This document shows positions 18,046-53,596 of a stretch of DNA of 64,000 bases, in pieces. The stretch comes from Cymbidium sinense (lineage: Eukaryota > Streptophyta > Magnoliopsida > Asparagales > Orchidaceae). A program made the position numbers and the translations under genes. The first letter of the stretch is position 1. Every line of letters starts with the position of its first letter. The notes under the pieces are model-generated. The model was not told the DNA's origin, did no database searches, and saw only the letters and a program-made list of their open reading frames with translations. The stretch covers positions 139,724,040-139,788,039 of the forward strand of contig CM038214.1 in NCBI GenBank assembly GCA_021442155.1, read 5' to 3'.

Positions 18046-20406
18046 TCTCTATTTTTTAGTTAGTTTAGGTTTTAATTTATTTTTTTAGTTTAGTTTTATT
18101 TTTATTTTATTTTCTTTTTAAGTTTAGGTTTAGTTTTAGGATTTAGTTTAGGTGTTTATTTTATTTTATTTTATATTTTATTTAGGTTTAGATTTTTTTA
18201 TATCTTTTATTTTTAGGTTTTATTTACTTTAGGCTTAGGTTTTTAGCTTTTTAGGGTTTAAAGTTTTAGGGTTAAGGGTTTAGGGTTTAGGGTTAGGGTA
18301 AGTGTTTAAGGTTAGGGTTTAGGGTTTAGTGTTTAGGATTTAGTGTTTAGGGGGTTAGGGTTTAGGGTTTAGGGTTAATTTTGGGTTTAGGGTTTAGGGT
18401 TTTTTAGTGTTTAGGGTTTAGGGTTTAGGATTTGTAGGTTTAGGGTTCTAGGATTAGGGTTTAGGGTTCAAGGTTAGTTTTAGGGTTTAGGGTTTTTTTT
18501 TTAAAATTAAGTAAACTAGTCGATCTAGGTTTATTTAATTTTTTATTTTATTTTATTTTATTTCTTTTATTTAGAATTACTTTTTATTTTTGCTTAGTTT
18601 AGCTTATTTGTTTTAGTTTAGGTTTTTTATTTTAGTTTATTTTTTAGATTTAGGTTTAAGTTTATGTTTATTTTTTATTTTAGTTTTTTTTTATTTTTAT
18701 TTTTTAGGTTTAGGTTTTAGGTTTTTAATTTAGATTTATTTTTAGGTATTATTTTTTAGTTTGGGTTTAGGTTTATTTTTAGTTTATTTTATTTTATTTA
18801 ATTTAGGGTTTAAGTTTAAGTTTAGGTTTTATTTATTTTAGTTTAGTTTAGGTTTAGGTTTATTTTTGTTTTTTAGTTTAGGGTTTAGGTTTTATTTTTT
18901 ATTTATTTTTAGGTTTATTTATTAGGTTTAGGTTTTTGTTTAGTTTTCATTTTATTTTATTTTAGGTTTATTTTAATTATATTTTAAGTTTAATTTTTAT
19001 TTTATTTGGTTTTTTATTTTTAGGTTTATTTTATTTTTTAGTTTAGTTTAAGTTATTATTTATTTTATTTTAGTCTAGTTTTTTTAACTTTATTTTATAT
19101 TAACATTTAAGTTTAGTTTTAGGTTTAGTTATAAGTTTAGATTTTTATTTTATTATTTAATTTAAGTTTAGATTTTTTATTTATTTTAATTCTATATTTT
19201 ATTTAGTTTAGGTTTAGGATTATAGGTTTTTAGGATTTAGGGTTTAGTGTTTAAGGTTTGGGGTTTGGGTTTAGGGTTTAGGATTTAGGGTCGTATCTTT
19301 TAGGGATTAAGGCTTAAGGGTTTATGGTTTTAGGGTTTAGTGTTTAGGGTTTAGGGTTTAGGATTTTAAGGTTTTAGGGTTTAGGGTTGTAGGTTTAGGG
19401 ATGTTTTAGGGTTTAGGCTTTAGGGTTAGAGTTTTATATTTTATATTTTATATTTTATTTTTTTAAATTAAGCAAACTCATAGGTTTAGGTTAATTTAAT
19501 TTATTTAATTTATTTTTTATTTAATTTAGTTCATTTTATTTTTTATTTTTATTTAGTTTAATTTATTTATTTTAGTTTATGTTCTTTATTTTAGTTTATT
19601 TTTTAAGTTTAGGTTTATTTTCTAGTTTAGTTTCATTTTTATTTTAGTTTTTAGGTTTAGCTTTTATTTTTTAATTTTAAGTTTAGGTTTTTATTTTATT
19701 TTTTTAGGTTTAGGTTTTAGGTTTTTATTTTAGGTTTATTTTTAGGTTTTATTTTTTGTTTAGGTTTAGGTTTAGGTTTAGCTTATTTTTGGATTAGGTT
19801 TAGGTTTTATTTATTTTAGTTTAGTTTATTTTAGTTTAGGTGTAGTTTTAATTTATTTTTATTTTAGGTTTAGATTTTTTCTTATAGGGTTTAGGTTTAT
19901 TTTTATTTATTTTTAGCTTTTATTTTGAGGTTTATTTTTTTTGGGTTTAGGTTTTATTAGTTTTTATTTTATTTTATATTTATTTTATTTTTAATATATG
20001 TTCAGTTTTTATTTTAGTTAGGTTTTTTATTTTTTAGTTTAGTTTTGGTTTTTATTTATTTTATTTTAGTTTAGCTCTTATTTTTTATTTGATTTTCTTT
20101 TTAGGTTTAGGTTTAGGTTTAGGTTTTACTTTAGGCATTTATTTTATTTCATTATATTATTTTATTTAGGTTTAGGTTTTTTTATTTATTTTATTTTTAG
20201 GTTTTATTTAGTATAGGTTTATGTTTTTAGCTTTTTAGGGTTTAGGGTTTAGGGTTTGGTGTTTAGGTTTAGGGTTAAGGGTTTAGGGTTTAGGGTTTAG
20301 GGTTTAGTGTTTAGGGTTTTTAGGGTCTAGGGTTTATGGTTTATGTATTAAGTTTTAAGTATAGGGTTCAAGTTTTAGTTTAGGGTTTAGGATTTTGATT
20401 TTTTTT
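18046..20406 (+). repeat. Telomere-like higher-order satellite, G-strand orientation (array A2)
   Basis: Canonical TTTAGGG clusters (about 18265-18490 and 19205-19430) alternate with T-rich TTTATTTTAG/TTTAGGTTTA sequence. The conserved module (AATTAAGTAAACTAGT type) follows each cluster, at about 18503 and 19465, 962 bases apart. A lead-in (TTTTATTTA, TTTAGGTTTA, then TTTTTAGCTTTTTAGGG) precedes canonical clusters at about 18205 and 20205. The next module position is occupied by the GRP fragment at 20407. The left edge truncates element E1. Confidence 0.9.
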
Positions 20407-20860
20407 ACAAATTTAGATTCAACATTTCTTATTTTGATTTCATAAAGTAACACCAAGTTTTCTACATATATAAAAAATGAGCTTGCATAGTGCAAATCAA
20501 AAACCCTAGATAACTAGAACAATCTCTACTATAAAGACATAGTTCCATAAGCAGCAGATCAGATCGATCGTTCTTCAATTTCTCTAGTTCCCATCATAAC
20601 CACCTCAGCATATTCAGTAGCGGGATCCACCATCATATCCCCCATCTATTCCTCTACCACCAGCACGATTGTAACCTTGTCATTCCTCCTGCATCCATAA
20701 CCACCAATGCTCCGACCACCACCTCCATACGCTCCAGCATCTCCAGATCAACCTCAACCACTATGATAACTACCACCTCTGCATTTGCCTCCATCATCAG
20801 ATCAAGACTGAGCCTGGTTGATGATGATGTTCCTACCGTCAAGGTTCTGCCCATTCTTAG
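20407..20860 (-). pseudogene. Glycine-rich RNA-binding protein fragment, copy 2
   Basis: Read on the minus strand from 20860: NGQNLDGRN, then INQAQS with Gln intact before AQS (CAG, unlike copies 1, 3 and 5), then an early stop in place of the Arg codon. The Gly-rich tail is frameshifted and the C-terminus reads GN-stop-RN, sharing the Trp-to-stop change with copies 1 and 3. The 3' UTR-like part runs to about 20407, where TTTAGGG-type repeats resume. The opposite-strand open frame 20654-20854 is a shadow. The N-terminal RRM half is missing and it cannot make a functional protein. Confidence 0.83.
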
Positions 20861-23450
20861 GGTTTAGGTTTAGGTTTAGGTTTATTAGGTTTATTTTTTA
20901 ATTTAATTAGTTACTTTAGATTTAGCTTAGGGTTTGAGGTTTAGGGTTTAGGATTTAGGGTTAAGATTTAGGGTTTAGGGTGTATGGCTTAGGGTTTAGG
21001 GTTTAAGGCTTTAGAGTTTATACTTTTAAGGTTTGGGTTTAGGATTAGAGTTTAGGGTTTAGGGTTTAGGGTTTAGGGTTTAAGGTTTATGATTTAAGGT
21101 TTAGGGTTTAGCTTAGGGATTAGTTTAGGGTTAGTTTTGGGTTGTAGGTTTAGGATTGTAGGTTTAGGGTTTTGGGTTAGTTTTAGGGTTTAGGGATTAG
21201 TTGAGTTTTATTTTTATTTTTGATTTTAAGTATAAGTTTTATTTTTTATTTTTATGTTTTTTTTATTAAATTTAGATTTTATGTTTTTATTTTAGGTTTA
21301 TTTTTAGGTTTTATATTTTTGTTTAGGTTTAGGTTTATTTTTAGTTTATTTTATTTAGTTTAGGTATATGATTAGGTTTAGTTTATTTTAGGTTTAGGTT
21401 TATGTTTTATTTATTTTAGTTTAGGTTTAGGTTTATTTTATTTTTATTTAGGTTTAGGTTATTTTTTTAGTTTAGGGTTTAGGTTTTATTTTTATTTATT
21501 TTTAAGTTTATTTTTTAGGTTTAGGTTTTTATTTAATTTTTATTTTATTTTTGGTTTATTTTATTTTTATTTTAGTTTAGTTTTAATTTTATTAAGGTTT
21601 TTTATTCTTACATTTATTTTATTTTTTTAGTTTAGTTTAGGTTTTTCTTTATTTTATTTTAGTTTATTTTTATTTTTTATTTTATTTTATTTTTAGATTT
21701 AGGTTTAGGTTTTTTTATTTTATTTTATTTTCTATTTTATTTAGGTTTATGTGTTTTATTTATTTTATTTTTAGGTTTTATTTAGTTTAGGTTTAGGTTT
21801 TAGTGTTTAGGGTTTAGGATTTAGGGTTTAGGGTTTTAGGGTTAGGGTTTAAGGCTAGGGTTTGGGGTTTAGTGTTTAGGATTTAGTGTTTAGGCTTTAG
21901 GGTTTAAGGTTTTTAAGATTTACGGATTTTAGGTTTAGGATTTAGGATTTATGCTTTAGGATTTATGGTTTTGAGTGTTTCAGGTTTAGGGTTTAGGGTT
22001 GGTTTAGGTTTTAGGATTTAGGGATTTAGGGTTTAGAGTTTAGAGTTAGGGTTTAGGTTTTAGGGTTTTGAGTTTATGATTTAGGGTTTAGTGTTCAGGG
22101 TTTAGGGTTTTTGAGGGTTTAGGGTGTTAGGATGTAAGTTTAAGGTTTAAGGTTTAGGATTTAGAGTTTAGGGTTTAGGTTTTAGGGTTTAGGGTTTAGG
22201 GTTTTTTTTAAATTTAAGTAAACCGAAAGGTTTAGGTTTATTGAGTTTATTTATTTATTATTATTTTTTTAAATGTTATATAGTTTATTATTTATTTTTA
22301 TTTAGTTTGGTTTATGTATTTTAGATTTGGTTTTTTATTTTAGTTTATTTATTTAGGTTTAATTTTAGGTTTATGTTTATTTTTTAATTTAATTTTATTT
22401 TTATTTTCTTTTTTAGGTTTAGGCATTATTTTTATTTATTTTTAGGTTTACGTTTAGGTTTTATTTTTATTTTATTTTTTTAGGTTGAGGCTTTAGGTTT
22501 TTATTTTAGGTTTATTTTTAGGTTTTATTTTTTAGTTTAGGTTAAGGTTTACATTAGGTTTATTTTATTTTATTTAGTTAAGTTTTAGCTTTAAGTTTTA
22601 TTTATTTTAGTTTAGTTTATTTTAGTTTAAGTTTAGGTTTATTTTATTTTTATTTTAGGTTTATGTTTTTAGCTTAGGGTTTAGGTGTTAATTTTCATTT
22701 ATTTTTATGTTTATTTTTTAGTTTAAGGTTTTTATTTAGTTTTTTATTTTATTTTATTTTAGGTTTATTTTGCTTTTATTTTATAATTAGTTTTCTATTT
22801 TATTTAAGTTTTTTATTTTTAGGTTTATTTTATTATTTAGTTTAGTTTAGGTTTTTATTTATTTTATTTTAGTTTAGTTTTTATTTTTTATTTTATTTAT
22901 TTTAGGATTAGGTTTAGGTTTAGGTTTAGGTTTTAGTTTAAGTTTTTATTTTATTTTAATTTTTTATTTGAATTAGGTTTAGGTTTTTTATTTATTTTAT
23001 TTAATAGATTTATTTAGTTTAAGTTTAAGTTTTTTTAGGATTTTTAGGTTTTTAGGGGTTAGGGTATAGGGTTTTGGGTTTAGAGTTTAGGATTTCAAGT
23101 TTAAGGTTTGGGGTTTAGGGTTTAAGATTTGGGTTTATGGTTGTAGGTTTTAGGGTTTAGCGTTTAGGGTTTAGGGTTTAGGGCTTTAGGATTTCAAGTT
23201 TTGGGTTTAGGGTTCCAAATTTAGGGTTTAGGGTTTAGATTTTTTATTTTAGTTTATTTCTTAGGTTTAGGTTTTTGTTTAGGTTTAGGTTTATTTTTTA
23301 GTTTAGTTTTTTCTATTTTAATTTTTAAGTTTAGGTTTTATTTTTCATTTTTAGGTTTAGGTTTTAGGTTTTTATTTTAGGTTTATTTTTAGGTTTATTT
23401 TTTTAGTTTAGGTTTAGGTTTATTTTTAAATTAGTTATTACTTATTTAGT
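20861..23450 (+). repeat. Telomere-like higher-order satellite (array A3, left part)
   Basis: This begins directly after NGQ of the GRP fragment with TTAGGGTTTAGG. Canonical clusters lie at about 20930-21200, 21795-22205 and 23040-23240. The T-run plus module is at about 22207-22230, with a variant core (AAGTAAACCGAAAGG). Between clusters the sequence is TTTATTTT/TTTAGGTTTA with pervasive single-base variants. There is no gene on either strand; open frames are short and low-complexity. Confidence 0.88.
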
Positions 23451-25560
23451 TTAGGGTTTAGGTTTAGTTTATTTTAGGTTTAGGTTTAAGTTTTTTTTTT
23501 AGTCTAGTTTATTTTTGTTTAGGTTTTGGTTTATTTTATTTTGTTTATTTTGGGCTTAGGTTTTTTGTTAGGTTTAAATTTTTATTTAGTTTTTATTTTA
23601 TTTTATTTTAGGTTAATTTTATTTTTATTTTATGTTTTGTTTTTATTTTATTTAGGTGTTTCATTTTTAGGTCTATTTTATTTTATTTAGTTTAGTTTAG
23701 GTTTTTATTAATTTTATTTTAGTTTAATTTTTAATTTTTATTTTATTTTAATTTTTGGTTTATGTTTAAGTTTAGGTTTTGGTTTAAGTTTTAGTTTAGG
23801 TTTTAATTTTATTTTATTATTTTATTTTATTTAGGTCTAAGTTTTTCTATTAATTTTATTTTTAGAAAATATTTAGTTTAGGTTTATGTTTTTATGTTTT
23901 TAGGGATTAAGGTTTATAGTTTAGGGTTTAAGGTTTGCGATTTAAGGTTTAGGGTTTTGGGTTGTAGGGTTTAGGGTTTAGGGTTGTAGGTTTAGGGTTT
24001 AGGGTTTTATTTATTTATTTTTATTGTTTGAAAAAAATAAAGTGGCAGGGTTATGTTTATTTAGTTAATTTTTAATTTTAGTTTATTTTATTTTTTATTT
24101 TTATTTCAATTTATTTTTATTTTTATTTAGTTTAGATTATTTATTGTAGTTTTATTTATTTTAGTTTATTTTTTAGGTTTAGGTTTAAGTTTATGTTTAT
24201 TTTTTAGTTTAATTTTATTTTTTTATTTTAGGTTTAGGTTTTATTTTTTATTTTTAGGTTTTGGCATAAGTTTTTATTTTATTTTTCTAGGTTTAGGTTT
24301 TTATTTTAGGTTTATTTTTATGTATTATTGTTTAGTTTAGGTTTAGGTTCATTTTTAGTTTATTTTATTTTATTTATGGTTTAGGTTTAGTTTATTTTAT
24401 GTTTAGGTTTAGGTATTATTTATTTTAGTTTAGGTTTAGGTTTTTTATTTTTATTTTAGGTTTAAATTTGTTTTATTAGTTTTGGGTTTAGGTTTTTTTT
24501 ATTTGTTTTTAGGTTTATTTTAAGGTTTATTTTTGAGGTATAGGTTTTTATTTAGTTTTTATTTTAGGTTTATTTTTTTTATTTTAGGTATAGTTTTTAT
24601 TTTGTTTAGCTTTTTTATTTTTTAGTTTAGTTTAGTTTTTATTTTTTATTTTTATTTCCTTTTTAAGTTTAGGTTTAGGTTTTTATTTTATTTTATTTTG
24701 GTTTAGATTTTTTTATTTATTTTTTATTTTAGGTTTATTATTTAGCTTTTTTTGGGGTTTAAGGTTTAGGGTTAGTTGAGGGTTTAGGGTTAAGGGTTTA
24801 GGCTTTAGGATTTAGGGGTTAAGTTTTATTTTTTAGGTTTATGTTTTTATTTAGTTTTATTTTATTTGATTTTAGTTTTATTTTATTTTTATTTTAGGTT
24901 TAGTTTTTATTTTATTTAGGTGTTTTATTTTTGGTTTTTATTTTATTTAGTTTAGGTTTTTATTTATTTTAATTTAGTTTATGTTTTATTTTTTAGTTTA
25001 TTTATTTTTATGTTTAGGTTTAGGTTTAGGTTTAGTTTTTTTTTTATTTTATTTAAAGGATTTACTTAGTTTTAGTTTAGGTTTTTAAGTTTTTAAGGTT
25101 TAGGGTTTATGATTTACGGTTTAGGGTTTAGGGTTTAGGGTTTAAGTTTTAGGGGTTGTGGTTTTGGGTTTGGGTTTAGGGTTGTAAGTTTTATTGTTTA
25201 GGGTTTATGGTTTAGGGTTTAGGGTTTAGGGTTATTTATTTATTTATATTATTTTTTATTATTTTATTTTTTTTAAAATTACCTAAACTAGTAGGTTTAG
25301 GTTTATTGAGTGTATTTAATTTTCCATTAATTTATTTAGTTTATTTTATTTTGTATTTTTATTTTTATTTATTTTAGTTTATTTATTTTTTGGTTTATTT
25401 ATTTTAGTTTATTTTTTATGTTTAGGTTTATTTTTATTTTATATTTAGGTTTAGGTTTTATTTTTTATTTTTAGGTTTAGGTTTAGGCTTTTTATTTAAT
25501 ATTTTTTAGGTTTAGGTTTTAGGTTTTATTTTTGGTTTAATTTTAAGTATTATTTTTTAG
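23451..25560 (+). repeat. Tandem unit 1 of a ~2.15-kb segmental repeat in the array
   Basis: This segment aligns with 25561-27700 at a steady offset of about 2.12-2.2 kb. Paired landmarks: a phrase with TTGAAAAAAATAAAGTGGC at 24028 against TTGAAAAAAGTAAAGTGGC at 26151; TTAGTTGAGGGTTTAGGG near 24770 and 26938; a GGGGTTAAGTTTTATTTTTT segment near 24815 and 26988; and TTATTTATATTATTTTTT near 25240 and 27432. The AAAGTGGC module variant is specific to these two units. The block is a doubled higher-order unit carrying two canonical clusters. Confidence 0.78.
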
Positions 25561-27700
25561 TTTAGGACTAGGTTTATTTTTAAATTGTTATTACTTATTT
25601 AGTTTAAGGTCTAGGTTTAGTTTATTTTAGGTTTAGGTTTAGGTTTTATTTTTTTTAGTCTAGTTTATTTTAGTTTAGGTTTTGGTTTATTTTATTTTAT
25701 TTATTTTGGGCTTAGGTTTTTTGTTAAGTTTAAATTTTTATTTAGTTTTTATTTTATTTTATTTTAGGTTAATTTTATTTTTATTTTATGTTTAGTTTTT
25801 ATTTTATTTAGGTGTTTCAGTTTTAGGTTTATTTTATTTTTTAGTTTGTTTAGGTTTTTATTAATTTTATTTTAGTTAATTTTTATTTTTTATTTTATTT
25901 TAATTTTAGGTTTAAGTTTAAGTTTAGGTTTTGGTTTAGGTTTTATTTTAGGTTTTTATTTTATTTTATTATTTTATTTTATTTTGGTTTAGGTTTTTTT
26001 ATTGATTTTATTTTTAGGATTTATTTAGTTTAGGTTTATGTTTTTATGTTTTTAGGGATTAGGGATTATAGTTTAGGGTTTAGGGTTTGTAGTTTAAGGT
26101 TTAGGGTTGTAGGTTTAGGGTTTAGGGTTTTATTTATTTATTTTTATTTTTTGAAAAAAGTAAAGTGGCGAGGTTATGTTTATTTAGTTTATTTTTTATT
26201 TTAGTTTATTTTATTATTTATTTTTATTTCAATTTATTTTTATTTTTATTTAGTTTAGATTATTTATTGTAGTTTTATTTATTTTAGCTTATTTTTTAGG
26301 TTTAGGTTTAAGTTTAAGTTTATTTTTTAGTTTAATTTTATTTTTTTATTTTAGGTTTAGGTTTTATTTTTGTTTTTTTAGGTTTAGGCTTAGGTTTTTA
26401 TTTTATTTTTCTAGGTTTAGGTTTTTATTTTAGGTTTATTTTTACGTATTATTTTTTAGTTTAGGTTTAGGATCATTTTTAGTTTATTTTATTTTATTTA
26501 TGGTTTAAGTTTAGTTTATTTTATGTTTAGGTTTAAGAATTATTTATTTTAGTTTAGGTTTAGGTTTTTTTTTATTTTTATTTTAGGTTTAAATTTTTTT
26601 TATTAGTTTTGGGTTTAGGTTTTATTTTTTTTTATTTTTAGGTTTTATTTTAAAGTTTATTTTTTAGGTATAGGTTTTTATTTAGTTTTTATTTTAGGTT
26701 TATTTTTTTTTTATTTTAGGTATAGTCTTTTTTTGTTTAGCTTTTTTATTTTTTTAGTTTAGTTTAGATTTGATTTATTTTATTTTAGTTTAGTTTTTAT
26801 TTTTTTATTTCCTTTTTAGCTTTAGGTTTAGGTTTTTATTTTATTTTATTTTGGTTTAGGTATTTTTATTTATTTTATTTTTAGGTTTTATTTAGTTTAG
26901 GTTTAGGTTTTTAGCTTTTTATGGTTTAAGGTTTAGGGTTAGTTGAGGGTTTAGGGTTTAGGGTTTAGGGTTTAGGCTTTAGGATTTAGGGGTTAAGTTT
27001 TATTTTTTAGGTTTATGTTTTTATTTAGTTTTTATTTTATTTGATTTTAGTTTTATTTTATTTTTATTTTAAGTTTAGTTTTTATTTTATTTAGGTGTTT
27101 TATTTTTGGTTCTTTTTTTATTTTTTAGTTTAGTTTAGGTTTTTATTTATTTTAATTTAGTTTATTTTTTATTTTTTAGTTTATTTATTTTTATATTTAG
27201 GTTTAGGTTTAGGTTTAGGTTTAAGTATTTTTATTTATTTTATTTAAAGAATTTACTTAGTTTAAGTTTAGTTTTAAGTTTTTAGTGTTTAGGGTTTATG
27301 ATTTACGGTTTAGGGTTTAAGGTTTCAAGTTTAGGGATTGGGGTTTATGGTTTAGGGTTTGGGGTAGTATGTTTTATGGTTTAGGGTTTAGGGTTTTAAG
27401 GTTTAGGGTTTAGGGTTTAGGGTTTAGGGTTATTTATTTATTTATATTATTTTTTATTATTATTATTTTTTTATATTAAGTAAACTAGTAGGTTTAGGTT
27501 TATTTAGTTTATTTAATTTGTTTTTTATTTATTTTATTATATTTTATTTTCTATTTTATTTTTTTATTTATTTAGTTTATTTATTTTTGGTTTATTTATT
27601 TTAGTTTATTTTTATGTTTAGTTTATTTTATTTTTATATTTAGGTTTAGGTTTTATTTTTTATTTTTAGGTTTAGGTTTAGGTTTTTATTTAATTTTTTT
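25561..27700 (+). repeat. Tandem unit 2 of the ~2.15-kb segmental repeat
   Basis: Partner of the preceding unit, with small insertions and deletions: the offset drifts from about 2123 to 2195 along its length. It contains the second AAAGTGGC module variant (26151) and a standard module at about 27473 (AAGTAAACTAGTAGG). Divergence between the units looks mild compared with the rest of the array, so this duplication is more recent than the basic satellite. Exact edges cannot be placed by eye in such repetitive sequence. Confidence 0.75.
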
Positions 27701-29287
27701 TAGGTTTAGGTTTTAGGTTTTTATTTTTGGTTTATTTTTAGGTATTATTTTTTAGTTTAGGACTAGGATTATTTTTATTTTATTTTATTTTATTTATGGT
27801 TTAGATATCGGTTTAGGTTTAACTTCTATTTATTTTGGTTTAAGTTTATGTTTTTTCAAGGTTTATATTTTTTTTACTTTAGGGTTTGGGTTTTATTTTT
27901 ATTTGTTTTAAGTTTTATTTTAAGGTTTCTTTTTTAGGTTTAGGTTTTTATTTAGTTTTATTTAGGTTTATTTTATATTTATTTTAAGTTTAGGTTTTAT
28001 TTTATTTAGGTATTTTATTTTTTAGTTTAGTTTTGGTTTTATTTTATTTTATTTTAGATTAGTTTTTATTTTTTAGTTTATTTTCTTTTTATGTTTAGGT
28101 CTAGGTTTAGGTTTATGTTTAGTTTAATTTTCAGTTTATGTTTTTGTTTTATTTTATTTTGCTTTGGTTTTTTTATTTATTTTCTTTTTAGGTTATATTT
28201 AATTTAGGTTTAAGTTTGTAGCTTTTGAGGGTTTAGGGTTCAGGGTTAGTTAAGGGTTTAGGATTTTTGATTTAGGGTTTAGGTTTTAGGGTTTAGGTTT
28301 TAGGGTTTAGGGTTTTAGGGTTTAGGGTTTAGGGTTTCAGGTTTAGTGTTTAGGGTTTTAGGGCTTAGGGTTTATGGCTTAGGGTTGTAAGTTTAATGTT
28401 TAGGTTTTAGGTTTTTTATTTTAGTTTATTTTTTAGGTTTAGGTTTACGTTTATTTTTTTAGTTTAGTTTTATTTTTATTTTAGTTTTTATTTTTAGGTT
28501 TAGGTTTAGGTTTTTATTTTAATTTTTTAGGTTTAAATTTTAGGTTTTTATTTTAGGTTTCTTTTTAGGTATTATTTTTTAGTTTAGGTTTAGGATTTAG
28601 TTTATTTTATTTTATTTATGGTTTAGGTTTAGGGTTTAATTTATTTTAGCAGGTTAACTTTTATTTATTTTAATTTAGGCTTAGGTTTATTATTTTTTAT
28701 TTTAGGTTTAGAATTTTTTATTATTTTAGGGTTTAGGTTTTATTTTTTATTTGTTTTTTAAGTTTTATTTTTAGGTTTATTTTTTAGTTTTAGGTTTTTA
28801 TTTTATTTTAATTTAGGCTTATTTTATTTATATTTTAGGTTTTGTTTTTATTTTATTTAGGTTTTTTAATATTTTATTTAGTTTAGGTTTTATTTATTTT
28901 TTAGTTTTAGTTTTTATTTTATTTTGTTTTTAAGTTTAGGTTTAGGTTTAATTTTTAGTTTAGTTGTTTATTATATTTAATTTTGGTTTCAATTTCTTAT
29001 TTATTTTATTTTTAGTTTTATTTAGTTTAAGTATAGTTTTTTAGCTTTTTAGTGTTTCAGCTTCAGGGTTAGTTGATGGTTTAGGGTTTAGGGTTTAGGA
29101 TTTTGATTTAGGGTTGAGGGTTTAGGGTTTAGGGTTTAGGTTTTAGGGTTTAGGGTTTAGGGTTTAGTGTTTATGGTTTAGGGTTTTTAGGGCTTAGAGT
29201 TTTAGGTTTAGGGTTTACGATTTAGGGTATAGGTTTTAGGTATAGGGTTTAGGTTTTAGTTTAGGGTTTATGTTTTTGATTTTTTTT
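27701..29287 (+). repeat. Telomere-like higher-order satellite (array A3, right part)
   Basis: Two further units. Canonical clusters lie at about 28225-28420 and 29050-29275, each preceded by the lead-in ending in TTAGCTTTT and by a GGTTAGTTGA/GGTTAGTTAAGG phrase also found in the 2.15-kb units. After the first cluster the T-run module is lost or eroded; after the second, the GRP fragment occupies its place at 29288. Confidence 0.86.
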
Positions 29288-42139: not shown

Positions 42140-42800
42140 AGGAAAACTAGATTTATCTAAGTTAGAAAGGTCTCTTAACTGCTTTGGAATATTACCATTG
42201 GAAAATAAGGTAAATCAGGGAGATTACCCCCCAAGCCATCTAAAAAATTAGTACAAGCATTACCTTCTCTCAAAATATGAGTCATCTTAAAAGAAAGCTT
42301 AGAAATAATAGCTTTAATATTCCTAAGTAAATAGAAAAGTTCAACATTACCCTTGTGATTAGAGTTGATCATAGTAACAACCATCTCAGCATCAGATTCC
42401 AACCAAATGGAAAGAAAATTCCCCTCAAACAAAGCTTAAGAGCATGATAAACAACCATCAATTCAACCATAATAGCAGAAGTAATAGAGAGAGGAGTAGA
42501 AAAAGCCAAGATAATACTCCCAAGATTATTTTGAAAAATACCACCACAACCAGACTTGTTAAGTGCAACAGAGCCATCAATATTAATTTTAATACAACAA
42601 TTAAGAGGATTAATCTAGTAATGATTTTATAAGAAGGAGGCAAGTCCCAATAAGAAAACTTAATACCCAATTTGGAAGCAACAAACCTGCAACCTCTAAA
42701 ATTAGTACCATTAAGAAGCGAAGCCTTATGTAAAAAAATTTTTATGTCTTTGGTCCTAGCAATAATCCTCTTATGATTCATAGGCACATTACGGTGTTTA
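42140..42800 (-). pseudogene. LINE ORF2 RNase H domain remnant
   Basis: The reading moves between frames: IKINIDGSVALNKSGCGGIFQNN (about 42605-42530, with the catalytic Asp in the DGS motif and GGIF replacing the usual GG[VI][LI]R), then AIMVELMVVYHALKLC (about 42480-42430, with the E of the AE/E.A motif), then WLESDAEMVVTMINSN and LSFKMTHILREGNACTNFLDGLG (42410-42230, with a His/Glu-Gly-Asn-like end). The order of motifs is that of the RNase H domain closing ORF2 in plant L1-like elements. At least two frameshifts. Confidence 0.8.
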
Positions 42801-42898
42801 GCATCATTTCTGTCAAGCCAAATAAACCCAATGAAAGTAACAGTCGCAACAGTTTTGATATGCCCTTAAATAGTATTAAGAAAGTAAGAGCTAAGGAG

Positions 42899-43640
42899 CT
42901 ACATTAAGTTAAAATTACCATTAAAAGAACTAAGGTTGAATAAGTCCTCATACCAATTCCAAATTTTAGAGGCAATAGCAACATTAACAAATACATGACT
43001 AACATCCTCAATATGAAAACAATACAAGCATTTAGAATGAAGATAAAATCCTTTATCCAAAAGTAAAGAATCAACAGCAATAAAATTCCTTAAAATTCTC
43101 CATAGAAGAATACAATAAGAGGTAGGAATAATGTTATTCCAAATCTTAAAAAATATAGGAGAAGAGGGTTTATTATCTCTAATATGGTGCCAGGTATCTT
43201 TAAATGAAAAATCACCATTACTAGAAATTTTGTAAAGAACATGATCAGGAGTGATACCATCAATAAGAATCTTGATGATTTTATTACAAATGGAAACAAG
43301 AAATAAGTCATACAAAAGAGACTGATTCCAATCACCATTTAAAATAAAATGATTAACTTTTAAAGAAGTACTAGAATGAGTATTATGCATAGAGTCAATA
43401 GAGGAATCCCCCATCCAATTATGTTGCCAAAAGAAAGAGGAGACACTATTGATACCCCAGGAAATGAGAGGTTTTGCTTGCCATTTAACAACACAAAGGC
43501 GCTTCCAAACAATAGAATCACCATGTTTATAGCTACAAGTTAAAGGATGCTTACCTTTGTAGTATTTATAATTCATAAAATTAGCCCATAGACTAACATT
43601 CTTTCTAAAATTCCACCAAAGTTTATAAGAAAAATATTGG
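42899..43640 (-). pseudogene. LINE ORF2 C-terminal zf-RVT-like region
   Basis: This is the longest open stretch of the window (265 codons, frame 43696-42899). It contains SLWANFMNYKYYKGKHP, then VSSFFWQHNWMGDSSID, FSFKDTWHHI, IWNNIIPTSYCILLWRIL and CLYCFHIEDVSHVFVNV. The spacing of the CxxC and H residues fits the zinc-binding region found after RT in plant LINEs and in related RNase H-like genes. It is open to a stop at 42899, after which the frame shifts into the RNase H region. Confidence 0.82.
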
Positions 43641-43699
43641 TGGAATCCAACAAGGCTAGAATTCTTCTCAAACAAAAAGTTAAGCCAACAAGACAAATA

Positions 43700-44968
43700 T
43701 TCGATAGCAATAATAAAAAGTTATAGAGAAAGAGGGTCACCTTGTCTAATACCTTGGGAGGACTTAAAGAAGCCAAAGTTTTCACCATTAATAACTAAGA
43801 GAACCAAACATTTAATGATATTATTAACCAAAGATAGAGAAACCAAATAAAGAAAGAATGCTCTTAAGAAAATCCCAAGAAATGTTGTCATAAACTTTGG
43901 TAATATTAAGCTTAAAAAGTAAATTTCCACCTCTAGTTTTCACATTTAAGTCATGAATTAGTTCTCGTGCAAGAAAGATGTTGTCAAAGATAGTCTACCT
44001 TTATTTGATTAGGATAAATAATCTTAGGAAGAAATTTCAAGCCTACTAATTATTTTAGAAATCAATTTATTAAAAAAATACAAAGACTAATGTCTAAAAT
44101 CATTCAAAATTAATTATTTTCTTGGGAATAAGAACAATATTAGTGGAAAGAAGTATTTAAGAATAGAATTCCCAAGAAAGAAATTCTTCATAGCATTAAC
44201 AAGATCAGATTTAATAATAAACTAAGCTTTTTGAAAGAATAAAGTAGAGTAGCCATCTGACCCTGTAGTAAAATTAGCATTCATACCATTAAGAATATTA
44301 AAAATTTCCTCATTGATAATTTTTATTTAAAGGATCTCTAAAATGTTAATAGCAGAAGATAAAATATCCTCTTTTTGGTAATCCAAGAACCATCAGAATT
44401 CTTGATTTTATGAATCCTCCCAAGAACTCTCCTTTTAAAACTAAAGCAGGAAAATATTTTGTGTTTTTTCCCCCTCAAAAAGATGTTTAGAAGTAGCCTT
44501 TTGTTTCTAGTAAGTCTCCTCCATATCCTGATACTTAGTGAGGTTATCTTTAGCTTCAAAAAGGTTAGAAAAAAAAGAATCATTAATAACAAGTTCTTCC
44601 AAATCTTTCACCTATTGTTCCATGTTCTTGATATTATTAAAAAGATTTTTGAAATAGTTTCTATTCCACCAATTAATATGGTGCTTAAGCCTTTTGAGTT
44701 TAAGCAACAATCTCTTCATACAGAAAACAGAATCATCTAGAGCAAGGGGAGCATGCCAATTAGAAGCAATAACATCAAGAAAATTACTATCTTGTAACCA
44801 CATATTTTGACAAAAAAAAATTTTAGTGACATTATTATTATGAACATCATCTTTAATGGAAATCAAAAGAGGAACAAGATCCGAGAGAGTTCTACTAAGA
44901 TGTTCAATGGAATTCAGAGGCCAATGGTTTACCAAAAAACTATTAAATAGAGATCCAAACATTGCCAA
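43700..44968 (-). pseudogene. LINE ORF2 linker and reverse transcriptase, catalytically dead
   Basis: Pieces in several frames: the linker after the endonuclease (44968-44612); a segment with FKRRVLGRIHKIKNSDGSW (about 44460-44380), typical of the start of LINE RT; motif A as LNITKVYDNISWDFL (about 43920-43870), with Asn where the first catalytic Asp is expected; and SSQGIRQGDPLSL (about 43760-43725), the RQGDPLSP-type motif. The following YADD motif and thumb are absent: the sequence passes within about 40 residues to KLWWNFRKNVSLWANF, which normally lies a few hundred residues later. RT is therefore lost by point change and by deletion. Confidence 0.82.
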
Positions 44969-44989
44969 AGTCTATGATTATTCCAAGTG

Positions 44990-45525
44990 AACTAAGAGCC
45001 AATAGAACCAACATCATGCAAATTACAATCCAAGATCATATTCGATAAATCTTCCATAGAATGTAAATACGATGAAGTACCCCCTTTCCTTTCATCCATA
45101 GAAAGGACTGTATTGAAATCCCCACCAATAATCCAAAAATTATTAATAGTAGAAGCAAAAGTGGATAATTGATCCCAAAGAATTCTCCTTTCAATCTTAT
45201 TACAAGTAGCATAAACAAAAGAGCCAAAAGCATGATAATCACCAAAAGAAATATCCACATTAACAACTTGATTAAAATCATTAATTACATTAATTGAAAT
45301 AGAATTATTCCAAAATAACCTAATCTTATTGTTATTGTTAAAATAATAATTGGAGAAACTGATCATTCTAGTTGCATACATAATTTTAGTAGAAAAGATA
45401 AGAGGTTCAAGGATAACCAAGAAATTGACATTATAAACCCTACAAAGGTTCTTAATCCTATTCAAAACAACAAGAGTACCAATGCCCCTAATATTCCAAA
45501 ATAGAAAATTAAACAGTAATTCTTA
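44990..45525 (-). pseudogene. LINE ORF2 endonuclease domain (EEP/APE-like), broken
   Basis: The frame 45465-44992 and its upstream extension show endonuclease motifs: WNIRGIG near the start (about 45510), FLVILEPLI carrying the metal-binding Glu, and FWIIGGDFNTVLS with the conserved GDFN. After a frame break near 44990, the TLSDLVPLLIS segment (about 44880) stands where the family has SDH, so the catalytic His is replaced by Leu. In active elements this domain nicks the target DNA. Confidence 0.82.
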
Positions 45526-45885
45526 TTGGGTATAGAAGATGAAGAAGATCAGTCAATCTAGAAACTTTAGAAGAAAATTTTTGAACTATTTTCTCTTTTT
45601 CACAAAAATAGTTTGAAAACTAATTTCATTTCCAAAAGATTCATCATCAAAAGGATCATTAGAACTCTTAATAACTGCAAATTTGGTAGGAGATTCCAAC
45701 TGAAAAGGCACTAAAACTTTTTTATCCATTAATTAAGAAGAAACCATACGCAAAACACCATAAAAAATAGTAGTTAAGGAAGGAGCAGAAACAAATTTGT
45801 TAAGCAAACAAGAACCTGGTTGCACCACATCCACCTTATCTAAACCATCAACAACTTCCATATTAAAAGAATTAAAAACATCTTT

Positions 45886-46964
45886 TTATTTAAGAGGTTC
45901 TTGAAAGTCAGAAAGAAAGAAATTATCTTTAAAATTTTCAGGATCTATATCACAAAAATCTTTAGGAGAGGAAATCAAAACTGGAATAATATCATCTTGA
46001 ACAATTCCACAAAGCATAGAAATAATAGCAGCCAAAATCTGATTAACATTCAAAGCAACATCATCATTTTTTGAAACATTTTCACAAGAATTCTCAATAG
46101 TTAAAACATTAGATAGATTCAAAATACCATCAACAACATATTTATCTTTTTTTTTGGTCAAAATAGAAATTTTATTTTTATCGGTTAAATGATCTCCAGA
46201 TTGATCAATCAACTTACAATTTTTAACAGATTTTTTCCTAAGTTGAGGATGAGCAATGAAACAATCCAAAAATACATGGCCATGGGTTTTGCAGTGATTG
46301 CATAAAACAGGAAAGTTTTCAAATTCAATCGGCTGTAAATATTCATACTTTTTTGACCCTATCCAAATCTCATTAGGATACTTCTTAGTAACATCAATTT
46401 GAACAAGGATACGAGCAACTGAAGGGCGAGATGTAGCCATAGTTGCTTGATCGATTTGTAAAGGGGTACCAAAAATAGACCCAATCACATGAAGAAATTG
46501 ATGATTAACAAGATGTATCTGAAGATTAGGCAAAGCAATCGAAACTGACACTAGAGGAGATTCTTCTTCAATGTCAAAAAATGGAGTCCATTTAAGGATA
46601 CACATTTTTCAATTTTTAACCTAATAAGATTGACGAGAGAAAATTTGGTTATAATCAAGATCATTAGATAACTTTATGAGGACATGATGACCATCTAACA
46701 AACCAGCTGAAAACACACCGGAGAGCTTTAATTCATGAATAAAATTGAATATCTTCCATATTATTGAGGAAAAAAAATTTACCAATCAGTAAAGGCATAA
46801 GGTTTCTCAATATCCAAATCTAAACACATTATAACAACACCTTTAAAGTTGTATAGATTAATCAAAATTGGTTGAAGCATCCATACCGATAAGGCATCTT
46901 TAAAGGATTTAGAAGAAAACTTAGATTTACCCAAGAAATCATCAACTCTAAAGAGAGCCGTCAT
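45886..46964 (-). pseudogene. LINE ORF1 remnant (DUF4283-like domain + CCHC zinc knuckle)
   Basis: The N-terminal piece (46964-46779) starts MTALFRVDDFLGKS. The core of the DUF4283-like domain (LDGHHVLIKLSNDLDYNQ) lies in another frame at about 46620-46779. The C-terminal piece (46605-45886) has WTPFFDIEEESPLVSV, RPSVARILVQIDV and a zinc knuckle CNHCKTHGHVFLDC (CX2CX4HX4C, complete). ORF1 proteins of plant LINEs bind element RNA. Two frameshifts disable this one. About 0.35 kb of spacer separates it from ORF2. Confidence 0.83.
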
Positions 46965-47064
46965 TTAGTACATGCCAAATGCAATCAAAGGTCGAAGATC
47001 AAAACCTGAAAATCCTCGGAAGCCACAAGAAGATGAAAATGGGTTCTGTCAGAACCAAGAAAAA

Positions 47065-49493
47065 AAAAGGGTTTTGTTTAGGTTTTAGTTATTATTATTA
47101 TTACTTAGTTTTATTATTTATTAGTTATTATTATTAATATTTATTAGTTATTAGTTAGTTATTAGTTATTTAATTATTAGTTTTTAGTTATTATTATTAG
47201 TTATTTATTTGTTATTAGTTATTAGGTTATTATTATTAGTTAGTTAGTTATGAGTTTATTATTATTAGTTTAGGTTTTATTAGTAAGTTATTTATTATTT
47301 ATTAGTTATTAGTTATTAGTTATTATTATTAGTTATTATTAGTTATTTAGTTATTAGTTATTATTAGTTATTATTATTAATATTTATTAGTTATTAGTTA
47401 GTTATTAGTTATTTAATTATTATTATTAGTTATTTATTAGTTACCATTAGTTTTTAGTTTTTAGTTATTATTAGTTTTAATAGCTTTTAAGTTTAGCTAT
47501 TAGTTATTAGTTATTAGTTATTTATTAGTTATTAGTTATTTTAGTTATTAGTTATTTGGTTAGTTTATTATTACTAGTTTATTAGTTATGTGGTTGTAGT
47601 TATTATTAGTTATTATTATTAATTAATAGTTATTAGTTTATTTATTAGTAATTAGTCATTATTAGTTATTAGTTATTATTAGTTATTAGTTATTATTAGT
47701 TATTATTAGTTTATTTATTAGTTATTAATAGTTTTATTAGTTAGTTATTAGTTAGTAGTTATTTATTTAGTTTATTATTATTTTTAGTTAGTTTAGTTAT
47801 TAGTTAGTTATTATTATTAGTTTAGTTTAGGTTTAATTATTAGTTATTAGTTATTATTAATATTAATATTATTATTAGTTATTAGTTAATTATTATTAGT
47901 TATTATTAGTTATTATTAGTTATTTATTATTAGTTAATTAGTTTATTATTAGTTATTATTATTAGTTTAGTTATTAAGTTTTAGATATTAGTTATTAGTT
48001 ATTAATTATTATTAGTTATTGTTAGTTATTAGTTATTATGTTTATTAGTTATTAGTTTTTATTAGTTATTAGATTTTAGATAGTTATTATTATTAGTTAT
48101 TATTACTTTAATTATTAGTTATTTGCTTATTATTAGTTATTATTAGGTTTTTATTAGTTATTAGGATTTGATAGTTAGTTTAGATTATTATTTACAAGTT
48201 TATTTATTAGTTAGTTATTAGTTTTATTATTATTAATTATTAGGTTTATTATTAGTTTATCAGTTTATTATTTAATTATTAGTTAGTCTTTTAGTTAGAT
48301 TTGGTTATTAGGTTTATTATTAATTATTATTATTAGTTATTAGTTATTTGTTTATTATTGGTTATTATTAGTTTTTAGATATTAGTTTATTATTATTATT
48401 AGTTTATTAGTTAGTTATTTAGGTTATTAGTTTATTAGATATTATTACTTAGTTAGTTATTAGTTTATTAGTTATTAGTTTTAAGTTTAGTTATTATTAG
48501 TTGTTATTATTAGTTAGTTTATTAGTTATTAGTTATTATTATTAGTTATTATTATTAGTTATTATTATTAGTTATTAGTTAGTTTAGTTATTATTAGTTA
48601 TTAATTTATTTAGGTTATTAGTTATTAATTATTAATTATTATTAGTTAAGTTTATTAGTTATTATTAGTTATTAATTATATTTATTATTATTAGTTATTA
48701 TTAGTTTATTAGTTCTTAGTTATTATTAGTTATTTTTATTAGTTATGAATTATTTTTAGTTATTATAGTTAGTTATAATTAGGTTATTAGTTAGTTTATT
48801 AGGTTATTTAGTTATTATTTAGTTATTATTAAGTTTAGTTTATTAGTTATTAGTTATTGGTTATTAGTTATTATGTTTTATTAGTTATTTGTTTAGTTAT
48901 TTTTAGTTATTAGTTATTAGTTATTAGTTATAGTAAGTGTTATTATTTAATTATGATTAGTTTTTATTAGTTATTAGTTATCAATTATTAGTTATTAGTT
49001 ATTAATTATTATTAATAGTTATTAGTTGTTAGGTTTAGTTTAGTTTAGTTAGGTTATTAGTTATTGGTTAGTTATTATTATTAGTTATTTATTTATTAGT
49101 TTATTTACTTTAATATTAGTTATTATTATTGGTAGTTATTATTATTAGTTATTATTAATTTATTAGTTAATAGTTAGTTAGTTTTGGTTTAGTTATTATT
49201 GGTAGTTATTAATTGGTTTTATTTATTTATCGGTTATTATTTATTAGTTTTAATTGGTTAGTTATTATTATTAGTTTATTATTAGTTAGTTTTAATGTTA
49301 TTAGGTTTAGGTTATTAGGTTAGTTTTTATTATTAGTTAGTTCTTACTTATTAGTTCATTTTATTATTAGTTATTAGTTATTATTGATTATTTATTAGGT
49401 TATTAGTTATTATTATATTAGTTAGTCAGTTTATTAGTTTATTATTACTTATCAGTTTTAATTATTAGTAATTAAGTTATTAGTTAGTTTATT
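47065..49493 (+). repeat. TTATTAG/TTAGTTA simple-sequence array
   Basis: About 2.4 kb consist almost only of T, A and G in permutations of TTATTAG, TTAGTTA and TTATTATTAG, with occasional TTTAGG-like variants early (47080-47100) and late (after 49300). Almost no C is present. It begins right after the 5' end of the LINE and ends sharply at about 49493 where canonical TTTAGGG starts. It shares the T/A/G composition and strand orientation of the telomere-like array but not its motif. No gene. Confidence 0.88.
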
Positions 49494-52400
49494 ATTAGGT
49501 TTAGGGTTTAAGGTTTGGGGTTTAGGGCTCGGGGTTTAGGGTTTAGGGTTTAGGGTTATAGGTTTTAGGGTTTAGGGTTTAGGGTTCAGGGTTTAGGGTT
49601 TAGGGTTTAGGGTTTAGAGTTTTAGGGTTTAGGGTTTAAAGTTTATGGTTATAGGGTTTAGGGGTTTAGGGTTAGGTTTAGGGTTTAGTGTTTAGGGTTT
49701 AGGGTTTTTTATTTATTTTATTTGTTTTATTTGTTTTAATTTCTTAAAATTAAGAAAACTGTTAGGTTTAGGTTTTTATTTAGTTTAATTTTTGTTTATT
49801 TTAGTTTACTTTATTTTTTTTATTTAGGTTTATTTATTTTTTTACTTAGTTTAGTTAGTTTAGTTTATTTATTTTAGATTTATTTATTTTAGTTTAGCTT
49901 TTTTATTTTAGTTTATTTTTTAGGTTTAGATTTATTTATTTTAGTTTTATTTTTATTTTATTTTTTTATTTTAAGGTTTAGGTTTAGGTTTTTATTTTAT
50001 TTTTGTAGGTTAGGTTTTATGTTTTTATTTTGTAGGTTTATTTTTTAGTTTAGTTAGGTTTATTTTTAGTTTATTTTATTTTATTTAGTTTGAGGTTTAT
50101 GTTTAGTTTATTTTAGGTTTAGGTTTAGGTTTTATTTAGGATTATTTTTTAGGGTTAGGTTTTTATTTTATTTTCTTTTAGGTTTTTTTATTTTATGCTT
50201 AGTTTTTATTTTAGTTATGTTTTTTTCTCTTAAATTTATTTTATTTTTTGTTTAGTTTAGGTTTTTATTTGTTTTATTTAAGTTTAGTTTTTAGTTTTTC
50301 TTTTATTTTATTTTTACATTTAGGTTTAAGTTTAGGTTTTAGTTTAGGTTTAGGTTTTTAAGTTTTTAAGGTTTATGATTTAAAGTTTAGGGTTTAGGGC
50401 TTAGGGTTGTAGGTTTTAGGATTTAGAGTTTAGGGTTTAGGGTTTAGGGTTTTAGGGTTTAAGGTTTAGGTTTAGGGTTTAGGGTTTAGGGTAGGGTTAG
50501 GGTTTAGAGTTGTAGGTTTAGGGTTGAGTTTAGGGATAGTTTAAGGGTTTAGGGTTTACAGTTAGGGTTTTTTTGTATTTTTTTAATTTAGTTTTTTTTA
50601 AAATTAAGTAAAGTTGTATGCTTAGGTTTATTTAGTTTAATTAGTTTATTTTTATTTATTTTTATTTAATTTATTTTTTATAATATTTAGGTTAATTTTT
50701 TTATTTAGTTTAGTTTATTTATTTAAGGTATTTTATTTTAGTTAATTTGTTAGGTTTAGGTTTATGATTATTTTTTAGTTTAGTTATATTTTTATTTTAT
50801 TTTTTATGTCTAGGTTTTATTTTTTATTTTTAGGTTTAGGATTAGGTATTTATTTTATTTTATAGGTTTAGGTTTTAGGTTTTTATTATAGGTTTATTTT
50901 TAGGTTTTATTTTTTAGTTTTGGTATAATTTATTTTTTAGTTTATTTTATTTTATTTATTGTTTACGTTTAGGTTTAGGTTTAGGTTTATTTTAGGTTTA
51001 GGTTTAGGTTTATTTATTTTAGTTTAGGCTTAGGTTTATATTATTTTTATATTAGGGTTTGGGGTTTAGGTTTTCTTTTTATTTATTTTTAGGTTTATTT
51101 TTTAGGTTTAGGTTTTATTTAGTTTTTATATTATTTTATTAGTTTATTTTATTTTTATTTTAGGTTTGTTTTATTTTTTAGTTTAGTTTAGGTTTTTATT
51201 TATTTTATTTTAGTTTATTTTTTTAGGTTTAGCTTTAGGCTTTAGTTTAGGTTTTCATTTTATTTTGTTTTTTATTTCATTCAGGTTTAAATTTTTTTAT
51301 TTATTTAATTTTTAAGTTTTAGTTAGTTTAGGTTTTTAGGTTTTTAGGTTTCTAGGTTTTTAGGGTTAAGGGTTTAGGGTTTAGGGTTTAGGGTTTAGGG
51401 TTGTAGGAATTAGGGCTTAGGGTTTAAGGTTTAGTTTAGGGTTCATGGTTTGGGGTTTAAAGTTTTAGTGTTCAAGGTTTAGGGTTTTGGGATTAGGGTT
51501 TAGGGTTTTAGAGTTTTGAGTTTGGGATTAGGGTTTAGTGTTTTTTTTATTTGTTTTAATTTTATTTTTTTTAAATTAAGTAAACTAGTAGGTTTAAGTT
51601 TTTATTTAGTTTATTTTTTTATTTTAGTTTTTTTATTTTTATTTTATTTAGTTTAGTTTATTAATTTTAGGTTTATTTATTTTAGTTTAGGTTTTTTTAT
51701 TTTAGTTTATTTCATATGTTTAGTTTTTGGTTTATGCTTATTTTTTAGTTTAGTTTTATTTTTATTTTTTTTAGGTTTAAGTTTTTTTTTGGATTATGTT
51801 TAGGTTTATATTATATTGTCTTTAGGTTTGGGCTTTAGGTTTTATTTTTATGTTTAGGTTGAGGTTTATTTTTAGTTTATTGTATTTTATTTAGGTTTAG
51901 GTTTAGGTTTAGTTTATTTTAAGTTTTGGTTTACGTTTTATTTATTTTAGTATTGTTAATTTTATTTTAGGTTTAGATTTATTTTAGTTTATTTATTTTA
52001 GGTTTAGGTTTTTTATTTTAGTTTAGGGTTTAGGTTTTATTTTTTATTTAATTTTAGGTTTTATTTTTAGGTTTATTTTTTATGGTTAGGTTTTTATTTA
52101 GTTTTTATTTTATTTTATTTATTTTATTTTACTTTTAGTGTTTATTTTATTTTATGTTTTTTTCTTAGGTTTATTATATTTTTTAGTTTAGTTTAGGTTT
52201 TTATATGTTTTATTTTAGTATAGTTTTTATTTTTTTTATTTTATATTTACATTTAGGTTTAGGTTTAGGTTTTTTTTTTTATTTTATTTTTTTATTTTAT
52301 TTAGGTTTAGGTTTTTTATTTATTTTATTTTTAGGTTTTATTTAGTTTAGCTTTAGGTTTTTAGGTTTTAGGGTTTAGGGTTTAGGGTTTGGGGTTTAGG

Positions 52401-53596
52401 GTTTAGAGTTTAGGGTTGTAGGATTTAGGGTTTAGAGTTTGGGGTTTATGGTTTAGGATTTTAGTGTTTAAAGTTTAGGATTTTGGGTTTAGGGTTTAGG
52501 GTTTTAAGGTTTAGGGTTTAGGGATTTTTTTATATTTTTTTAAATTAAGTAAACTCGTACATTTAGGTTTATTTAGTTTATTTTAGTTTATTTATTTTTT
52601 ATTTTATTTTGGTTTATTTTTATTTCTATTTAGTTTAGTTTATTTATTTTGGGTTTATTTATTTTATTTATATTTATGTTTAAGTTTAGGTTTTAGTTTA
52701 GGTTTTTATTTTATTTTATTTTTTAATTTGATTTAGGTTAAGGTTTTATTTATTTATTTTATTTTTAGGTTTTATTTAGTTTAGGTTTAGTTTTCAGTTT
52801 TTAGTGCTTGGGATTTAGGGTTTAGGGTTGTAGGTTTAGGGTTCACGGTTTAGGGTTAGTTTTTGAGTTTAAGGTTTTTTTTTTAAATTAAGTAAATTCA
52901 TACATTTAGGTTTATTTAGTTTATTTTAGTTTATTTTATTTAGGTGTATTTTTATTTTTTTTAGTTTAGTTTATTTATTTTGGGTTTATTTATTTTATTT
53001 TAGTTTAGTTTTTCGTTGTTATTTTTTATATTTAAGTTTAGGTTTAGGTTTAGGTTTTAGTTTTGCTTTTTATTTTATTTTATTTTATTTATTTGAATTA
53101 GGTTTTGGTTTTTTTATTTATTTTTTTAGGTTTTATTTAGTTTAGGTTTAGGTTTTAAGGTTTAGGGTTTGGGGTTTGGGGTTTAGGGTTTAGGGTTTGG
53201 GGTTTAGGGTTTAGTTTAGGGTTGTAGGTTTTAGGTTTATGTTTTTTGGTTTAGGGTTTAGGTTTAGGGTTTAGGGTTTTTGTTTTAGGGTTTAGGGTTT
53301 AGTGTTTTCGGGTTTAGGGTCTAGCGTTTATGGTTTATGGTTTAGGTTTTTTTATTATTTTTATTTTTTAAAATTTAAGTGAAGTGGTAGGTTTAGGTTT
53401 TATTTATTATTATTTTTTTAATTTTCTTTCTTTTTTATTTTTATTTAGTTTATTTTATTTATTTTAGGTTTATTTATTTTAGTCTATTTTATAGGTTTTG
53501 GTTTTGGTTTAGGTTAATTTTTTAGTTTAATTTTATTTTTATTTAATTTTTTAGGTTAGGTTTTATTTTTTATTTTTAGGTTTAGGTTTTAGGTTT
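49494..53596 (+). repeat. Telomere-like higher-order satellite (array A7)
   Basis: Four to six units. Canonical clusters lie at about 49494-49710, 50365-50570, 51360-51540, 52365-52525, 52805-52860 and 53155-53340. Modules follow at about 49746, 50600, 51572, 52542, 52885 and 53370, giving spacings of about 854, 972, 970, 343 and 485 bases; the last two units are shortened. Lead-ins of the TTTAGTTTAGGTTTAGG type occur near 51320, 52345, 52785 and 53140. No GRP fragment occurs in this array. It ends abruptly at 53596. Confidence 0.9.

Follow-up and report, generated by a model that had tools for sequence, protein, structure and literature searches.

A long-unit satellite built on the telomere motif

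The 64,000-nucleotide stretch of Cymbidium sinense DNA analysed here (contig CM038214.1 of assembly GCA_021442155.1, positions 139,724,040 to 139,788,039; hereafter, the window) contains long runs of DNA resembling the telomere repeat TTTAGGG. It raises the question of whether such DNA is a decayed telomere tract or a satellite with a structure and an origin of its own. The first-pass annotation of this DNA had described positions 18046 to 53596 as a distinct satellite amplified as long units. Within the window this description was borne out: the array is a real long-unit satellite in which homologous units follow each other head to tail and in phase. Its non-telomeric module is phased, its T-rich bodies are homologous to each other, and its period is ∼0.9 kb. 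On the G-rich strand, a canonical TTTAGGG block is followed by a T-run, the module AATTAAGTAAACTAGTAGG, a T-rich body of 590 to 860 bp that includes a lead-in, and then the next block. Not every unit follows this plan in full: a recognisable module is missing from some, others are interrupted by an insert, and two near 52.5 to 53.4 kb are short.

C-poor, T-rich DNA with TTTAGGG blocks occupies 18.0 to 30.6, 37.2 to 41.56, and 49.5 to 53.6 kb, and its mirror image, judged by composition, occupies 1 to 3.2 kb, for a total of ∼24 kb of satellite in the window. The range proposed earlier also includes other DNA at ∼30.59 to 37.16 kb, a long interspersed nuclear element (LINE) at ∼41.56 to 47.07 kb, and a different array, of TTATTAG, at ∼47.07 to 49.50 kb. 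The satellite is interstitial: other DNA, part of it retroelement, lies on both sides of the plus-strand array, and TTTAGGG arrays are present in both orientations. The satellite features are as follows; the gene pieces mentioned are treated below.

1 to 3235, minus strand: inverted satellite stretch (CCCTAAA on the plus strand), truncated by the window edge and recognised by composition, modules, blocks, and segment alignment; contains minus-strand modules at 706 and 1714, one gene piece, and inverted canonical blocks at 747-921, 1739-1983, and 2503-2643; runs up to an RNase H-like retroelement frame
18046 to 20399, plus strand: satellite stretch with blocks at 18250-18492, 19236-19425, and 20234-20385 and modules at 18505 and 19466
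20858 to 29281, plus strand: satellite stretch with modules at 22212, 25277, and 27474, variant modules near 24031 and 26154, and a 2.15-kb dimer duplication
29738 to 30590, plus strand: satellite stretch with a module at 29883; breaks off near 30590
37180 to 37484, plus strand: canonical block to the left of the gene piece at 37485 to 37976
37977 to 38987, plus strand: satellite stretch with a block at 37986-38158, a T-rich segment without a module, and a block at 38873-38979
39480 to 41560, plus strand: satellite stretch with modules at 39788 and 40886 and blocks at 39478-39779, 40545-40870, and 41476-41539
49500 to 53596, plus strand: satellite stretch with modules at 49748, 50602, 51574, 52543, 52886, and 53373

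The inverted copy at 1 to 3235, the gene piece in five telomere blocks, the 2.15-kb dimer duplication, and the old, little-homogenised appearance of the array had not been described in the first-pass annotation.

The T-rich bodies are one shared sequence

A plain telomere tract that has undergone random decay or repeated healing would have no unit structure. The comparison on which the first-pass annotation had staked its reading, alignment of the segments between modules against a control, was made with 18 inter-block segments (16 plus strand and 2 inverted) in all 153 pairs. A nineteenth segment (52856-53160, 305 bp) was set aside as short, and short or cut-off stretches were excluded (1-746, 18046-18249, 24818-25098, 26992-27287, 29867-30590, 52524-52813, and 53320-53596). 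The in-phase alignment scored higher than all 12 rotations of the same sequence in 133 of the 153 pairs and higher than the reversed sequence in every pair. After 90 bp at the module end and 50 bp at the other end were cut away, 97 pairs still scored higher than all 19 rotations (median z, 3.6) and 56 did not. Both inverted segments aligned with the plus-strand units. The alignment consensus had 862 columns and contained the recurring lead-in before the next block that had been reported earlier.

The bodies also differed from the canonical blocks in the share of G-runs that are GGG (1% versus 72%; GG made up 25% in the bodies) and in edit distance to TTTAGGG (0.40 versus 0.13), contrasts that arise partly by construction because the blocks were called by TTTAGGG, whereas the in-phase test is free of this effect. 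It is true that the T-rich bodies use a similar C-poor grammar of a T-run, an A, and zero to three Gs, which favours decay. However, bodies that are homologous in phase refute random decay for most segment pairs, and the earlier argument that decay or healing could not have produced the phasing holds; as an account of this array we find it barely credible. Decay of methylated cytosine was also considered as a source of the T-rich body and rejected: deamination of the C-rich strand would appear as G-to-A changes on the strand described here, whereas the body has fewer Gs and more Ts.

It is the canonical blocks that are regularly spaced, recurring with a period of ∼0.9 kb. Most complete spacings had been placed at 0.85 to 1.1 kb on the basis of the module, and for the modules this was not upheld, with just 5 of 13 successive spacings in that range; the others were several units long, broken by insertions, or short (343 and 487 bp). 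The canonical blocks were placed more evenly, with 16 of 28 start-to-start intervals at 0.83 to 1.1 kb. The autocorrelation of GGG density, run without masking of the gene pieces, peaked at 900 to 950 bp in both 18.0 to 30.6 kb (0.36) and 49.5 to 53.6 kb (0.39), with a second harmonic that was clear in the latter region (0.34 at 1,850 bp) and weak in the former (0.12 at 1,800 and 2,150 bp). Among the heptamers of 31 blocks, TTTAGGG was counted 328 times and TTTAAGG, which fits C-strand deamination, was second with 34; TTCAGGG was outside the 14 commonest.

Module copies exceed the chance level

All 14 module sites claimed in the first-pass annotation were located, within 3 bp of the positions given and with 0 to 5 mismatches to a 19-mer. 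Eleven had three or fewer mismatches, a level reached by no match in eight third-order Markov shuffles of the region. A 25-mer consisting of the module and TTTAGG had 10 matches with at most three mismatches (nine plus strand and one minus strand), compared to none in 100 dinucleotide shuffles. By these two controls, chance, which had been named among the outcomes that would refute the reading, is ruled out for the set as a whole. The two weakest sites, 22212 and 52886 (five mismatches each), are unconvincing from the mismatch count alone, because plus-strand matches with five mismatches also occur outside the satellite (17693 and 54974) and some occur in shuffles; what supports them is their location after a T-run and ahead of TTTAGGTTTATT.

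A weight matrix made from the 14 sites, and hence circular for those sites, added the two minus-strand modules at 706 (38.3 bits) and 1714 (22.0 bits). The maxima in 200 fourth-order shuffles had a mean of 12.0 and a largest value of 27.5, so that the sites at 1714 and 40886 (21.6 bits) are not individually beyond the largest shuffle maximum. A T-run ahead of the module had been reported, and at least six Ts immediately preceded 13 of the 14 plus-strand modules, the exception being 49748; the runs before the minus-strand modules were nine Ts at 706 and one at 1714. A variant module, GAAAAAARTAAAGTGGC, was present at 24031 and 26154 in two units that are 94% alike, and it marks a second unit type in the dimer. 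Read-through of telomerase RNA, an idea taken from the available part of one report (PMC2246262), was rejected as the source of the module, there being no Rfam match in the window at the gathering level or in 39000 to 41000 at an E value of ≤1.

The same gene end splits five canonical blocks

Five canonical blocks, four in the plus-strand array and one in the inverted stretch, are each interrupted by a copy of one antisense gene end, 450 to 490 bp long and of ordinary sequence complexity.

2005 to 2484, plus strand (sense): gene piece gInv, the inverted copy, with a degraded A-run (longest T-run, 4); 78 to 80% identical to the other four
20400 to 20857, minus strand: gene piece g1, antisense 3′ end of a predicted glycine-rich RRM protein gene with an untranslated region (UTR)-like stretch and an A-run, flanked by two canonical blocks
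29282 to 29737, minus strand: gene piece g2, found by alignment
37485 to 37976, minus strand: gene piece g3, found by alignment
38988 to 39479, minus strand: gene piece g4, found by alignment

Read on the minus strand, each copy passes from telomere repeats into a peptide like NGQNLDGRNITINQAQSRSGGGG, a glycine-rich tail with frameshifts and stops, a stop, ∼198 bases of putative UTR, and an A-run. The 5′ end of the piece lies within the end of the predicted RRM. An A-run of 7 to 8 is retained in four of the five copies, and in g3 and g4 the T-run directly follows a telomere repeat. A profile of the five broken translations matched the RNA-binding glycine-rich protein 4c7q, from tobacco, with an E value of 7.7e-4; the match covers 18 residues at the chain end, NGQDLDGRNITVNEAQSR. 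The other three PDB chains matched by this profile at an E value of ≤1 were RBP1, an RRM domain-containing protein, and mS86. The joint profile, together with the known features of this family, suggests that the gene piece is probably the end of a glycine-rich RNA-binding (RRM) protein gene. The gene piece was considered as a possible source of the module and rejected: three of the five blocks that contain it have a separate module after them (29883, 39788, and the inverted 1714).

The copies are 78 to 82% identical in pairs over aligned columns (72 to 81% by local BLAST). In the alignment they start and stop at matching points; g1 has small deletions close to its A-run end. The exact 17-mer TTTTAGTTTAGGGTTTA lies 5 to 12 bp from four of the copies and 43 bp from gInv, and these are five of its nine exact matches in the window. 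Because the copy ends agree and the 17-mer lies within 5 to 43 bp of each, we infer that the gene end was captured once and was then copied with the units. The copies also bear on whether the array might be an assembly or base-calling artefact in low-complexity DNA, in which T-rich homopolymers are error-prone. The gene pieces differ by ∼20%, with substitutions in ordinary sequence, and the phase is common across more than 35 kb and the inverted side; an artefact is very improbable.

Age and copying history

The gene pieces are 10.6 to 12.7% diverged from their own consensus, and 23 canonical blocks are 13.3% diverged from perfect TTTAGGG. This about equal decay suggests one old burst. The T-rich bodies are 75 to 89% identical in pairs, with short internal branches except for two pairs at 92 and 94%. 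Since the bodies give a star-like tree and the blocks and gene pieces are similarly decayed, most of the array's spread seems to date from a single burst, after which it decayed with little homogenisation. The dimer duplication of 2.15 kb (23234-27014 versus 25388-29143) is 83.5% identical, and the best segment pairs inside it are the two at 92 and 94%.

This history bears on whether the array could be a working centromeric or pericentromeric satellite comparable to the telomere-similar repeats of Solanum and Cycas. Telomere-derived arrays at or near plant centromeres are described in the available parts of two reports (PMC8621592 and PMC9827991). However, the present array appears to be old, little homogenised, and broken by insertions, and a centromeric role seems unlikely. 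No present function is indicated, and we take the array to be passive, decaying, and interstitial.

Origin of the satellite

The reading that we favour, and that we hold to be somewhat better than an even bet, is that of a decayed satellite of telomere repeats and T-rich body which was born when a polyadenylated RNA was reverse transcribed into telomeric DNA and which then spread by block copying. On this view, Ts of the G-rich strand would have served as primer on a poly(A) tail, in the manner of LINE-type target-primed reverse transcription, and the T-run of the gene piece would be the complement of that tail. Such priming would leave an antisense copy behind telomere repeats, matching the arrangement seen. 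A single event with the mRNA of a glycine-rich RNA-binding protein could have produced the gene piece, at a capture site either in the chromosome interior or at a chromosome end. The T-run and module might go back to another such tail, a shorter one, from a second RNA, a weaker proposal given that the region is T-rich. Unequal exchange or rolling-circle copying may then have spread the composite, mainly in one burst. Among the later events are the dimer duplication, retroelement insertions, and either an inversion or the formation of a separate inverted array. We count in favour of this reading the LINE within the array, whose A-run end abuts telomere repeats and which has the same orientation as the gene pieces of the plus-strand array.

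Several observations weigh against the favoured reading. The A-runs are short (7 to 8) and one is degraded; in g1 and g2, some 10 other bases separate the run from the telomere repeats; and in T-rich DNA a T-run ahead of a module counts for little. Support is low at most inner nodes of the body tree, and its alignment is of low-complexity DNA. One copy of the gene piece alone gave no match in PDB (E ≤0.1), Pfam (E ≤0.01), or the protein collection (E ≤1e-3), and the five copies with X-marked breaks had no Pfam match at an E value of ≤1. The source gene is outside the window, and intron-free copying is thus not demonstrable. By eye, the flanks of the gene pieces are telomere repeats, in which a target-site duplication is unreadable. 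Shared telomeric flanks over 100 to 140 bp around the pieces were rejected as a further link: against other canonical windows at the best of seven offsets, and hence a generous control, 100-bp alignments were slightly above control on the left (94.5 versus 85.0; standard deviation, 18.4) and no better on the right (74.2 versus 78.7; standard deviation, 19.1). Co-amplification of the flanks thus rests on the agreeing ends and one 17-mer that is 43 bp off in gInv.

The same satellite could have acquired its gene end as DNA, through break repair, template switching, or a Helitron-like carrier, in which case the A-run would simply be genomic. The shortness of the A-runs, and the degraded state of one, would fit such a capture, and the common 3′ and 5′ ends of all copies would be expected from any single event. 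What speaks for reverse transcription is the layout that this route predicts, with an antisense piece placed behind telomere repeats and ending, past a UTR-like stretch, at an A-run. DNA capture is a serious competitor, but the less probable of the two.

A more far-reaching form of reverse transcription is also conceivable, in which the unit would be a fossil chromosome end: telomerase would have added TTTAGGG in alternation with reverse transcription of polyadenylated RNA, namely, the glycine-rich protein message and a module-ending RNA, on exposed TTT, after which telomerase would have resumed. We regard this as a long shot. If true, plants would have had their own version of hybrid retroelement-telomerase telomeres, one built with host mRNA.

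Relation to known systems

Telomere-like arrays inside plant chromosomes are already known, and as far as the accessible text of the reports goes, they have mostly been described by fluorescence in situ hybridization and heptamer counts (PMC9827991, PMC8621592, and PMC9498494). In the array described here, the unit itself can be read, with a phased non-telomeric module, a common T-rich body, and a captured gene end, the mark of what was probably one founding event. This piece provides a tag for dating and tracing the birth and copying of an interstitial telomere array, and with it a route of retroposition into telomere DNA can be tested in any assembly from this plant. Among the open-licence literature matches listed, as titles and abstract beginnings, no report of a gene piece within a telomere-like satellite was found.

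Telomere-similar centromeric arrays were reportedly found in potato and other Solanum species by Tek and Jiang in 2004 and He et al. in 2013. Going by the partial descriptions available, their likeness to the present array is one of interstitial TTTAGGG-like DNA amplified as a satellite, and it is a likeness of description and not of units. Processed pseudogenes, which are produced by LINE machinery, resemble the gene piece in being 5′-truncated copies with a 3′ A-run; the piece here differs in lying in telomere DNA and in having seemingly been amplified along with it.

The pericentromeric blocks of Cycas are likewise amplified interstitial telomere repeats with variants, but their second variant is TTCAGGG versus TTTAAGG here, and no long unit is described for them in the available part of that report (PMC9827991). 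BR23 of Cestrum is similar as a high-copy repeat linked to interstitial telomere repeats, again by description and not by sequence in what was available of the source (PMC9498494). The SART and TRAS LINEs of Bombyx, from the portion of the account at hand, share with the proposed route LINE-type reverse transcription into telomere repeats; in contrast, the insert here is likely a cellular gene end, and the LINE in the window is one broken copy for which no target specificity is shown (PMC4700185).

LINE, TTATTAG array, and other surrounding DNA

Two insertions or arrays that interrupt the satellite range lie outside the unit.

41561 to 47069 (approximate), minus strand: LINE-type element with DUF4283, endonuclease-like, zf-RVT, and RNase H-like pieces in broken frames; an insertion outside the unit
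47070 to 49495, plus strand: 2.4-kb TTATTAG/TTA-rich array of TTA and TTAG units, C ∼1 to 2%, between the LINE and the next canonical block

The LINE is the only one recognised in the window, and it is broken. Its endonuclease-like stretch scored 23.5 bits, slightly below Pfam's 24.5, and its protein had no match in the protein collection at an E value of ≤1e-3. No module or canonical repeat was found inside 47070 to 49495, and this array is no part of the unit. No tRNA genes were found in the window.

Retroelement pieces that we read as gypsy type are present at 3236 to 8076, 31041 to 34205, and 61297 to 63998 and are 69 to 85% alike in DNA. One frame, at 3233 to 3667, had a Pfam match (RNase H-like), and six further frames from the retroelement and nearby parts had none; the inverted satellite stretch stops directly inside the RNase H-like reading frame. 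Taken with the plant-type telomere motif, this retroelement content points to a probable plant nuclear origin of the DNA. A second repeat family outside the satellite, at 8075 to 9998, 10749 to 12352, and 57932 to 59963, is 65 to 71% alike and is present in both orientations.

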